A DNA stretch of 54,921 nt, taken from contig JAKPGL010000202.1 of the NCBI GenBank assembly GCA_029550925.1, positions 1 through 54,921 on the forward strand, given 5' to 3'. This stretch comes from Planctomycetota bacterium. Lineage in GTDB: Bacteria; Planctomycetota; Planctomycetia; Pirellulales; Thermoguttaceae. Under the pieces are notes generated by a model that saw only the letters and a list, made by a program, of their open reading frames with translations, did no database searches and had not been told where the DNA came from. The position numbers and the translations under genes are program-made. Positions 22,130 to 25,113 of this stretch are shown piece by piece; position 1 is the first letter of the stretch; each line of letters opens with the position of its first letter.

Positions 22130-22344
22130 ACTCCCGCCCCCGGCCCACCGACCCAACTCCCTACCAACAAACCCGCTCTCTGCTACAGCGTGGCTCGATT
22201 CCCCATCCACCTCTACTCCCGTCTCCCTACTTCCTACCCCCCCACTGCCTGCTCACTTCCCGTTGGCCAACCGATGTGCTTTAATATACTTTACCGGCGC
22301 TGGGGATCACCCGAAATCCTCTTTGCCTCCAGGAGGTTGGCCGG

Positions 22345-25113
22345 ATGGAATCTATTGTCCAACAAGCGCTCGAAAATTATGGGTTCAAGATTGCCCCTCG
22401 GATTGGCTGGGGTGGGTTTGCCGAGGTCCACGAAGCCTATTCCGCCGAAGGAGTGCCGTGTGCCATCAAAGTGTCGCTCCACCCGTTGGATGAGGCCGAC
22501 TCGGAAATCCGACGCGAACTGGAAAACCTCAACTATTTGAAGATGTTGCCCGGACATCCGCGGATTGTTACTTTGATGGACATTTGGATGATCGGCGGCT
22601 ATCTGGTTACCCGCTGGGAATTGGCCCCCGGCGAAGGCGAACTTGCCCCCGGCAAAAAAATCCGCTCCTTGGAGGATATGCTACGGTACTATGAGCTTGT
22701 AGGCCAGCAAGGTATCCCTCTTAGCAAACTCATTCGATATATCTATGAAACCGCGCAAGCGATAGATTTTCTCAACGAAAAAGGAATCTATCATCGAGAC
22801 ATCAAACCCTCGAACCTACTTTTGTTTTGGGATCGAGTGAAGGTGGGGGATGTAGGGCTGGCGAAGTTTATTGGCGCTTCAATTGGTTCCCACAGCCGGT
22901 TGGGTACTCTTGGTTATTTGCCTCTGGAAGCGTGGGACCAAGGGGTTTTACATCCAACGGTGGATATCTATAGTCTTGCAGCCACCTATGTGAAACTTCG
23001 CACCGGCCGAGAGCCGTTCGGTACAAAACCTAAGGAAATTTTGGATAACCAAACTCTCGGCAAACCGTGTTTAGAGGGTTTGGGGGATGCGGAAAAATTG
23101 GTGGTGATGCAGGCATTGGCGGCGGACCCCGCTGCTCGGCCCCAACACGGTGCGGTGCAGTGGGTTCGTGAATTGTATGCTGCTATTCGAGCGCCGGATT
23201 CACCACCGCCGCTTGGACCTGTAAGTCAAATGGTGGTTTCGGATGCCCACTCGTTGATCCGCGCTGTCGCAAACGCTCCGCCCGGAGCCATCATCTATCT
23301 CCAGCCAGGTACGTATCGTCTGCCCAAAGGCCTTCAGATCAAAAAGTCGCTTTTGCTGCGCGGAAGTGGAAAAGAAAATACATATATCCTGGTAGATACA
23401 CCTGGACGAGCGGCTATTTCTTATTTAGGGACTGGTTTATTCAGTGTGCGCGACCTTAGCGTAGAATATATCGGTTTGGGACCTGCTGATGTTCTATCGG
23501 CCAGTTCTGGAGTGGTAGACATTAGAAATTGTGTCTTTCAAGGTGGGAAGTGGGCAGATGGTTCTGGCGTGTTCGGTGCTGGAGTTCGGTTACAGGGAAT
23601 AGTCCGAGGAACTCTACACGGATGCATCTGCCGGAAAAATACCTATGGAATTTGCGTTTCTGAGCAGGCGCAGCCGACTTTGGAAGAAAACCAATGCCTG
23701 GAAAACGCAACGGGTATTGCCTACTTTGGAACCAGTTCTGGAGTAGCCAGAAAAAATATCTGCCAAAAAAATCAAGACCATGGGATTCAGGTTTCTGAGC
23801 AGGCGCAGCCGACCTTGGAAGAAAACCAATGCCTGGAAAACCTGGCAACGGGCATTGCCTACTTTGGAACCAGTTCTGGGGTGGCCAGAAAAAATATCTG
23901 CCAAAAAAATCAACTTCAGGGGATTGCGGTTTCTGAGCAGGCGCAGCCGACCTTGGAAGAAAACCAATGCCTGGAAAACGTCGAAACAGGCATTGCCTAC
24001 TTTGGAACCAGTTCTGGAGTAGCCAGAAAAAATATCTGCCAAAAAAATCAACTTCAGGGGATTGCGGTTTCTGGGCAGGCGCAGCCGACCTTGGAAGAAA
24101 ACCAATGTATAGAAAACCAAGACTGTGGTATTGTTTACTTGTGGAGTAGTTCCGGAATAGCCAGAAAAAATATCTGCCAAAAAAATCAATACCATGGGAT
24201 TCAGGTTTCCGAGCAATCGCACCCCACCTTAGAAGAGAACCAATGCCTAGAAAACGAAGATACTGGCATTGTATTTTTTGACAATAGTTCTGGAACGGCT
24301 GACAGAAACATTTGCAGAAAAAACGCAAAACATGGAATCTCGATCGAGGATCAGGCCGAACCCGGAGTAGTCGGAAACAAGTGCCTACAAAACGGCAAGA
24401 ACGGGATTGCTTATTCTAACTACAGCAAGGGGACGGCACGAAATAACCTTTGTGGGGGGAATGGGCGTCGCGGTATTCAAGTCTCCCAGAACGCTTCCCC
24501 TACCCTGGAAAAGAATCGTTGTGTTAAGAATAAAGGCGCCGGGATCGCCTATGTAGATCAAAGTGAAGGGATAGCAAGAAAAAACAGATGCATAGAGAAT
24601 GGATATACTGGAATTTTTGTTACCGATGATAGCAACCCTACTATCGAACATTGCCAATGTGTGCGAAATAAAGATTGCGGGATAGCTTTTTGGGGACGAA
24701 GTCAGGGACTGGTTAAAGGGAATATTTGCACAGCGAACGAACAATATGGCATTTATATAGCAGGGGCCTCGCAACCCATTTTACAGGAAAATCACTGTTC
24801 CGAAAATAAAAAGGCGGGTATTGGATATGGAGGTTCTCAAGGAGGAAAGGCCCAGTATAACCTTTGCAAGGGGAACGGTACTTATGGCATTTGCGTGGGA
24901 GGAAACGCCCAACCTCTGTTAGAAGAAAATCAGTGTCTGGAAAACGTTCAAGCAGGAATTGTTTACAAAGATAACAGTGGGGGGGTAGCAAGACGCAACA
25001 TTTGCCTCCGCAATGACAAACAAGGGATTCATATAGAAGATGAAGCCGCTCCCTTGTTAGAAGACAATCAACTAGACACTCCTTTGCCTGGTAGGAAAGA
25101 AAGCCCAGTGTAG
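22345..25113 (+). CDS. Ser/Thr protein kinase fused to a right-handed beta-helix repeat domain
   Basis: The 922-residue protein has an N-terminal kinase domain (about residues 12-285): Gly-rich loop GWGGFAEV (21-28), Lys42 in CAIKVS, the catalytic loop HRDIKPSN (150-157), and D169-V-G in place of DFG, followed by GTLGYLPLEAW. The rest (about 295-910) is a NosD-like parallel beta-helix: a PPGAIIYLQPGTYRLP start, then about 25 coils of 22-23 residues with repeating GIAYxxxSSGVARKNICQKN and PTLEENQCLEN patterns. No signal peptide or membrane segment is visible, so it is probably cytoplasmic. AGGAGG with 8-nt spacing supports the start. The beta-helix DNA is much A+T-richer than its neighbours and has near-identical tandem units, suggesting recent expansion or transfer. 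Confidence 0.88.
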   Translation: MESIVQQALENYGFKIAPRIGWGGFAEVHEAYSAEGVPCAIKVSLHPLDEADSEIRRELENLNYLKMLPGHPRIVTLMDIWMIGGYLVTRWELAPGEGELAPGKKIRSLEDMLRYYELVGQQGIPLSKLIRYIYETAQAIDFLNEKGIYHRDIKPSNLLLFWDRVKVGDVGLAKFIGASIGSHSRLGTLGYLPLEAWDQGVLHPTVDIYSLAATYVKLRTGREPFGTKPKEILDNQTLGKPCLEGLGDAEKLVVMQALAADPAARPQHGAVQWVRELYAAIRAPDSPPPLGPVSQMVVSDAHSLIRAVANAPPGAIIYLQPGTYRLPKGLQIKKSLLLRGSGKENTYILVDTPGRAAISYLGTGLFSVRDLSVEYIGLGPADVLSASSGVVDIRNCVFQGGKWADGSGVFGAGVRLQGIVRGTLHGCICRKNTYGICVSEQAQPTLEENQCLENATGIAYFGTSSGVARKNICQKNQDHGIQVSEQAQPTLEENQCLENLATGIAYFGTSSGVARKNICQKNQLQGIAVSEQAQPTLEENQCLENVETGIAYFGTSSGVARKNICQKNQLQGIAVSGQAQPTLEENQCIENQDCGIVYLWSSSGIARKNICQKNQYHGIQVSEQSHPTLEENQCLENEDTGIVFFDNSSGTADRNICRKNAKHGISIEDQAEPGVVGNKCLQNGKNGIAYSNYSKGTARNNLCGGNGRRGIQVSQNASPTLEKNRCVKNKGAGIAYVDQSEGIARKNRCIENGYTGIFVTDDSNPTIEHCQCVRNKDCGIAFWGRSQGLVKGNICTANEQYGIYIAGASQPILQENHCSENKKAGIGYGGSQGGKAQYNLCKGNGTYGICVGGNAQPLLEENQCLENVQAGIVYKDNSGGVARRNICLRNDKQGIHIEDEAAPLLEDNQLDTPLPGRKESPV
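23641..24254 (+). repeat. Near-identical 135-138 bp tandem units within the beta-helix coding region
   Basis: The sequence GTTTCTGAGCAGGCGCAGCC or a close variant recurs at 23656, 23791, 23929, 24067 and 24205, giving spacings of 135, 138, 138 and 138 bp. Each unit encodes 45-46 residues, that is two beta-helix coils. The first four units are almost identical at DNA level, including synonymous positions; the fifth and later ones are diverged. Confidence 0.9.

Follow-up and report, generated by a model that had tools for sequence, protein, structure and literature searches.

A planctomycete Ser/Thr kinase fused to a 21-coil beta-helix whose neighbouring coils differ mainly on one face: a candidate recognition arm

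In the 54,921-nucleotide contig JAKPGL010000202.1 of assembly GCA_029550925.1 (a Planctomycetota bacterium of the Thermoguttaceae; the whole stretch is hereafter called the window), one gene encodes P0001, a protein in which a Hanks-type Ser/Thr kinase domain is followed by a long right-handed beta-helix. The two parts are fused, the catalytic residues are present and no export signal is seen; moreover, related kinases carry different, interchangeable arms, and amino-acid changes between near-identical neighbouring coils of the beta-helix concentrate on one face. The explanation we favour, to which we give an even chance, is that P0001 is a soluble cytoplasmic kinase whose 21-coil beta-helix serves as a swappable, diversifying arm for protein recognition. 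An earlier note on this DNA, made from the sequence alone, had missed both the family of kinases with interchangeable arms and the coil variation on one face.

P0001 is one unbroken open reading frame (ORF) of 922 aa with an ATG start at 22345-25113 on the forward strand. This single frame rules out two separate genes and agrees with the earlier claim that kinase and beta-helix belong to one protein. The features of the gene, all on the forward strand, are as follows.

22331..22336 (+): Shine-Dalgarno sequence AGGAGG, 8 nt 5' of the ATG (read by eye)
22345..25113 (+): kinase-beta-helix gene, 922 aa (ORF listing, Pfam profiles, structure model)
22345..23193 (+): Hanks-type Ser/Thr kinase domain, residues 1-283 (Pfam Pkinase, fold matches)
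22402..22431 (+): glycine-rich loop IGWGGFAEVH, residues 20-29 (motif reading)
22468..22470 (+): ATP-anchoring Lys42 (motif reading, family alignment)
22792..22815 (+): catalytic loop HRDIKPSN, residues 150-157 (motif reading)
22849..22857 (+): DVG metal-binding motif, residues 169-171 (motif reading)
23194..23223 (+): short linker, residues 284-293, where model confidence is low (AlphaFold model)
23224..23646 (+): beta-helix cap and first irregular coils, residues 294-434, a shared module (alignment A1, profile searches)
23647..25092 (+): 21 successive coils, residues 435-916, at 23-aa spacing (the first 22 aa), last end placed by hand (pattern and model)
23656..24271 (+): 138-bp tandem repeat spanning two coils, 4.5 copies with 87% matches (tandem DNA repeat detection)

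The Pfam Pkinase profile matched residues 16-231 (E 6.3e-27), and the fold search with the full model, whose listed matches were all kinases, matched the domain to PknB, PknF, PknA and CDPK kinases at Z ~25 (VIA). All the residues expected of a Hanks-type kinase were found: the glycine loop, the VAIK lysine (Lys42), HRD, Asn157, the DFG-type Asp169 and the C-lobe Arg265. Motif reading thus upholds the earlier statement that most catalytic motifs, including Lys42 and HRDIKPSN, are intact. Two positions are substituted, with Val for the Phe of DFG (DVG) and PLE for APE. The DVG motif is present as the earlier note had it, but it is less telling than the note implied: 12 of the 15 rows of the family alignment have DLG (two others have lost the motif, and P0001 has DVG), so DVG is a mild step from the family norm. 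These substitutions bear on the possibility that the kinase is non-catalytic and acts as a structural or allosteric module. In its favour, neither DVG nor PLE is usual, and two relatives with the same arm have lost HRD and DFG (L127, with HRN/DFH, and L087, with HGY/ETG); P0001, however, keeps the whole catalytic set listed above, and its best PDB sequence match, NEK7, itself has DLG. We therefore regard a non-catalytic P0001 as unlikely. The two pseudokinase-beta-helix fusions (L087 4963-7098 and L127 4325-6352) indicate that the architecture survives without the usual catalytic residues. A defence-kinase label from PADLOC (mad6 as top match, 105.8 bits) was rejected, since all seven other scanned kinases of the genome score 161-248; the match of P0001 to known anti-phage kinases (PADLOC mad6, PD-T4-6, PglW) is not above that of ordinary kinases, and the literature matches listed for mad6 contained only unrelated work.

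The genome of P0001 encodes four paralogous kinases with 57-63% identity over the kinase domain and different C-termini, so that the arms of the five members comprise a beta-helix, leucine-rich repeats (LRRs), a transmembrane segment plus LRRs, and membrane tails.

L022: LRRs; hydropathy shows no membrane segment
L021: a membrane segment, then LRRs
L020: a membrane tail rich in glycine
L019: a membrane tail

Beyond this genome, the kinase profile gave 19 matches, two of which hold a stop, in 12 of the 119 genomes of the taxonomic family, and a search of genome contigs with the P0001 sequence returned one relative. Further arms were seen in L079 (a kinase fragment at a contig start, with WD40 repeats), L084 (a kinase with a glycine-rich tail, then a weak WD40 match at the contig end, 20.4 bits against a cut-off of 27) and L091 (a member from another family of the order, carrying TPR). 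In the kinase tree, the six rows bearing a beta-helix require six changes, which places every one of them apart from the rest. Alanine/glycine-rich membrane tails end L020, L075, L080, L086, L159, L077 and L082; some of them are of the GAIxGAI type, an internally repetitive arm.

The arm of P0001 matched the Pfam Beta_helix profile PF13229 (E 2.6e-74) and the NosD profile (7.4e-51), as well as the Pect-lyase profile. The 21 coil starts lie at residues 435-894, and of the 20 spacings between them 19 are of 23 residues, the first being 22. This regular spacing, together with the 138-bp tandem DNA repeat, means that the beta-helix is not a chance pattern. The coil pattern reads G1 I2 x3 V/Y4 x5-7 A/S8 x9 P/G10 x11 L/A12 E/R13 x14 N15 x16 C17 x18 x19 N20 x21-23. 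In the model, DSSP strands fall at about positions 1-4, 9-13 and 16-18, which we take to be PB1, PB2 and PB3, and the Asn of position 15 sits in the short T2 turn. The earlier note had called for structure prediction. AlphaFold2 with an 18-row alignment gave a confident model of a kinase plus a right-handed beta-helix, with a mean predicted local distance difference test score (pLDDT) of 91.4 and a predicted template modelling score (pTM) of 0.69. The pLDDT falls below 50 at residues 171-173 and 175-185 (activation segment), in the linker 284-293 and at 915-922, and is about 88-99 per ten-residue block in the coil region up to residue 910.

Because the matches listed for the full model were kinases only, the beta-helix was also modelled (mean pLDDT 95.2) and searched alone. 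Its closest solved fold is the mannuronan C-5 epimerase AlgE4 (2pyg; Z 33.8, rmsd 1.8, 304 aligned residues, 19% identity, VIA). An FBXO11 structure was absent among the fold matches listed, which proves nothing, and a phmmer search of PDB chains with the beta-helix half gave no match at E 0.01 or better. The closest solved folds, being mannuronan C-5 epimerases and lyases, suggest that the arm could be a sugar-acting enzyme regulated by the kinase. However, P0001 scores 84.1 bits against the cut-off of 300 for the NosD family TIGR04247 (the PF05048 profile is above its own cut-off) and 40.3 bits against 700 for the AlgG family, and it lacks DPH, the mannuronan C-5 epimerase motif. NosD or epimerase function was rejected on these family cut-offs. 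The T3-PB1-T1 side of the helix is moreover where pectate-lyase-type enzymes bind their substrate, and it is this very face that varies here; thus, a sugar-acting arm is very improbable.

With regard to location, no signal peptide was seen by eye in P0001, and no membrane segment was found, the highest 19-residue hydropathy mean being 1.02 compared with 2.97 in the membrane segment of its relative L147. These readings accord with the view already taken in the earlier note that P0001 lacks both and is likely to be cytoplasmic.

The variable residues of the coils are those of T3, the outward residues of PB1, and T1; we define the face as coil positions 3, 5, 6, 7, 21, 22 and 23. A first comparison covered all even-register coil pairs with at least 80% DNA identity in 12 proteins; the resulting 38 pairs, from seven proteins, are for that reason not independent. 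In these pairs, codon changes at positions 3, 5, 6, 7, 19, 21, 22 and 23 are nonsynonymous in 160 cases and synonymous in 8, whereas at the remaining positions 21 are nonsynonymous and 44 synonymous. A second comparison was made between adjacent units (27 coil pairs with at least 75% DNA identity; seven of the ten proteins gave pairs, while L081, L085 and L146 gave none), using uncorrected proportions of nonsynonymous (pN) and synonymous (pS) changes. Pooled over the seven proteins, pN was 0.341 on the face and 0.041 at other positions, against an overall pS of 0.219. The pattern used to find coils loosely fixes positions 1, 2, 4, 8 and 10, so their conservation is partly by construction; the contrast nevertheless stands on the free positions alone, with a pN of 0.051 off the face against 0.341 on it (0.028 against 0.272 in P0001 taken separately).

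By protein, face pN and pS were 0.352 and 0.053 in L077, 0.387 and 0.263 in L078, and 0.356 and 0.179 in L082, and face pN was slightly above pS in L125 and L147. The bootstrap 95% interval of pN-pS ran from 0.057 to 0.188 for all pairs and from 0.005 to 0.133 when L077, the strongest case, was removed. The position profile of P0001 agreed with that of the other six proteins pooled (rho 0.673, permutation p 0.0015 at the free positions; rho 0.627, p 0.00075 at all positions). Because the variable set had first been seen on overlapping data, the seven positions at which P0001 itself varies most (3, 6, 11, 18, 21, 22, 23) were tested on the other six proteins as held-out data, giving a pN of 0.295 on the set and 0.079 elsewhere, with a pS of 0.204. 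A tree-based count over 28 two-coil units put omega at about 1.0-1.15 on the face and 0.3 elsewhere.

Outside the window, tandem DNA repeats (period of at least 40 and a multiple of three, counted in the stretches examined) were present at 10 of the 17 loci that belong to the two module families, at none of eight other beta-helix loci in the genome of P0001 and at one of ten other loci of the order and phylum. A diversity-generating retroelement was considered as the source of the variation and rejected, there being no reverse transcriptase (RVT_1) match in the genome of P0001 (G000, 97.5% complete). The LRR arm of L021 has one valid repeat pair, with 89% DNA identity, and its amino-acid differences are confined to positions 9, 11, 13 and 16, which we take to be the open LRR face; in L022, positions 9, 13 and 14 change amino acid in all five adjacent comparisons. 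The WD40 repeats of L079 were left out, as they offered two pairs only, one of them out of register.

These data raise the question of whether the face is diversified for binding or simply tolerates change. Under the second possibility, the beta-helix would be a fixed docking scaffold that holds a constant partner or oligomerises the kinase, and the face would reflect loose selection after duplication. PMC5120217 describes repeats as generally evolving fast after duplication, under both relaxed and positive selection; since divergence of repeats within a protein is fast in general, relaxed selection is a serious rival, and we consider it possible, though rather doubtful. Several observations favour it or otherwise weigh against a diversifying recognition arm. 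In P0001 alone, face pN equals pS (0.272 and 0.274; bootstrap interval -0.108 to 0.115), and L126 has a face pN of 0.125 against a pS of 0.140 and departs from the position pattern (rho 0.15). In the tree-based count, no single site was significantly above 1 in site-by-site analysis of positive selection, and in its deeper comparisons position 9, and positions 18 and 19 of one coil type, vary too, so that the contrast is sharpest in recent duplicates. Positions 11, 18 and 19 are moderately variable even in adjacent pairs (pN 0.11-0.17), and L022 changes at several other positions in most adjacent comparisons. Furthermore, only 5 of 19 inner branches of the kinase tree are starred, and the beta-helix rows L087 and L127 are very long; these two beta-helix kinases are the pseudokinases noted above; and no operon partner, ligand or substrate was found for P0001. 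On the other side, positions 9, 13, 14 and 16, presumably outward-facing, are conserved in adjacent pairs (pN 0-0.075), so not every surface is free to vary; the pooled face rate exceeds the synonymous rate; and the single pair of L021 changes only on its open face.

If the beta-helix is indeed a diversifying recognition arm, its variable T3-PB1-T1 face would bind a protein partner, a picture into which the docking scaffold suggested in the earlier note fits. Binding might recruit a target or cluster kinase copies, and clustered copies might then phosphorylate each other and downstream proteins. A role in recognising non-self, such as phage or competitor proteins, is conceivable. A broader and still more tentative proposal, which we think somewhat improbable as it stands, is that the Thermoguttaceae kinases are receptors resembling NOD-like receptors (NLRs) without a nucleotide-binding oligomerisation domain (NOD): a conserved kinase head would carry swappable solenoid arms (beta-helix, LRR, WD40, TPR), often of near-identical repeats, whose binding faces are diversified by selection and repeat exchange to follow changing non-self proteins, the beta-helix being a new diversifying recognition scaffold in bacteria. 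If the reading as a recognition arm is right, a fold known above all from exported enzymes that act on sugars would serve bacteria inside the cell as a rapidly evolving recognition surface, connected directly to a kinase. It would offer a simple, testable system for repeat-protein diversification, designed binders could be built on its 23-residue coils, a natural modular scaffold with one variable face, and planctomycete kinase expansions might be linked to recognition or conflict.

Another important question is how widely the beta-helix module is shared. A profile of its cap, built from the eight rows of alignment A1, found matches in 11 of 119 genomes of the family (E <= 1e-15), in 59 of the 296 genomes sampled from the order (E <= 1e-6; nine of them below 1e-25) and in 6 of the 392 sampled from the phylum (E <= 1e-12). 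Below 1e-25, the module stands at 14 distinct loci, eight of which are the rows that build the profile. Its partners there are kinases or pseudokinases at seven loci, Hsp70-like ATPases at three and an unknown N-domain at two; at two loci, the partner was not read.

Window (P0001): kinase
G309: kinase, truncated at the contig start; the part read shows no membrane segment
G328: kinase, with a membrane segment before the helix
G134: kinase, same domain order, but the frame changes and holds an in-frame stop
G558: kinase, read only as its C-lobe up to the contig end; the helix is preceded by a hydrophobic stretch that is borderline (hydropathy 1.61)
G026 and G166: pseudokinases
G002, G020 and G287: Hsp70-like ATPases
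G001:C24 and G030: unknown N-domain
G001:C4 (starts at the contig edge) and G003 (frame starts 115 bases from the edge): partner not read

The expectation of the earlier note that similar planctomycete fusions may exist is thus supported, the seven kinase or pseudokinase loci including P0001; kinases bearing the module were found more than once in the genomes searched, yet only rarely. Its occurrence on kinases, pseudokinases, Hsp70-like ATPases and an unknown domain implies that the modules are shuffled. In the weakly supported cap tree, the window cap stands beside the Hsp70 and unknown-domain caps, apart from the other kinase caps (79/84 support).

Different kinases with a beta-helix of their own were met in passing, outside any survey of kinase plus beta-helix across bacteria at large: an unrelated soluble kinase in G250 (L109 850-3003), without a membrane segment by hydropathy and with repeats that by eye resemble what we take to be FBXO11-type coils, and a kinase in G151 (L133) with a membrane segment by eye. 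At the kinase and beta-helix locus L125 5094-6987, an in-frame stop and a frame change lie between the parts, and decay and sequence error are indistinguishable. The Hsp70-like ATPases with a beta-helix (L081 2094-4945, L085 3203-5506, L126 1-2547) lie beside dynamin-like GTPase genes (a Dynamin_N match for the neighbour of L081; the neighbours of L085 and L126 similar by eye), and the pair may perhaps be a separate membrane-linked system. In G002, the Hsp70-like portion occupies two frames (L081 2094-4391 and 4361-4945), so this gene may be broken or misassembled. At L078 2512-5634 and L090 1812-4028, the N-terminal domain that precedes the beta-helix matches nothing in Pfam; a signal-peptide-like stretch is seen by eye in L078, so the module may also work outside the cytoplasm.

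We also considered whether the P0001 gene could be an artefact of assembly or gene modelling. The genome is a draft of 233 contigs, and misassembly could have altered the count of near-identical repeats, although the frame itself is intact. The gene has a GC content of 48.4%, compared with 59.5% in the remainder of the window, and is the lowest-GC stretch of the window at its length (along 22500-25000, GC drops from ~60% to 44-53% over the gene); low GC is no rule among the relatives, whose genes lie within 0.06 of their flanks in 16 of 16 cases. The genes flanking P0001 are not adjacent in two congeners, where the upstream and downstream ones lie on different contigs, so a conserved gene neighbourhood was rejected, and BLASTN found no DNA like the P0001 gene in four 15-19 kb stretches around the counterparts of the flanking genes in these congeners. 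Against an artefact stand the continuous frame with its Shine-Dalgarno sequence and the kinase-beta-helix fusions of other genomes, and we hold this explanation to be the most improbable of those considered. In the window, a same-strand gene ends 215 bases before the P0001 gene and the downstream neighbour is convergent; thus, no operon partner is evident.

Among known systems, NosD, mannuronan epimerases and pectate lyases have the same fold as the arm of P0001, which does not reach their family cut-offs; such proteins are mostly exported carbohydrate enzymes or metal-site maturation factors. Planctomycete kinases were reportedly studied by Arcas et al. in 2013, a work cited in PMC8567305. 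A 2024 survey of Planctomycetota kinases counts 307 architectures and 105 accessory domains, among which arrays of WD40 and TPR repeats stand out, most of them in the periplasm (PMC11032199). Like P0001, these kinases have a long repeat array C-terminal to a Hanks kinase domain, and the survey suggests that similar architectures arose several times; its arrays, however, are WD40 or TPR and mostly lie in the periplasm behind a membrane segment, whereas P0001 has a beta-helix and no membrane segment. Words beginning with "helix", "NosD" and "pectin" are absent from the main text of the survey, whose supplementary domain tables may still list the architecture. At the level of titles and abstracts, and among the best-ranked matches of long listings, we found no kinase-beta-helix fusion of this kind in the literature, so a common and well-described architecture, which the earlier note had named as a refutation, did not come to light within that scope. 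Planctomycete kinases with C-terminal repeat arrays are already known, whereas the beta-helix version and a diversifying beta-helix face were not found in print in that search.

Intracellular beta-helices are said, in PMC8825234, to serve substrate recognition in the CASH domains of FBXO11. Both FBXO11 and P0001 have a right-handed beta-helix, intracellular in the former, a ubiquitin ligase subunit, and probably so in the latter, a kinase. A parallel in evolutionary behaviour comes from the arms of fungal NLRs, for which PMC4986451 and PMC1805685 describe near-identical repeats, positively selected surface positions and concerted exchange; on the reading we favour, the beta-helix of P0001 would act much as these arms do, though with no NOD domain. 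Fungal NLRs with highly conserved internal repeats share with P0001 near-identical repeats (judged in P0001 by the DNA of its 138-bp unit and not by the protein-level threshold of those papers), a few variable positions on the interaction surface, and interchangeable effector and repeat modules. They differ in having a NACHT or NB-ARC domain, neither of which appears in the Pfam table of P0001 at E 0.1, where a kinase takes that place, and in that positive selection is reported for them and only suggested for P0001.

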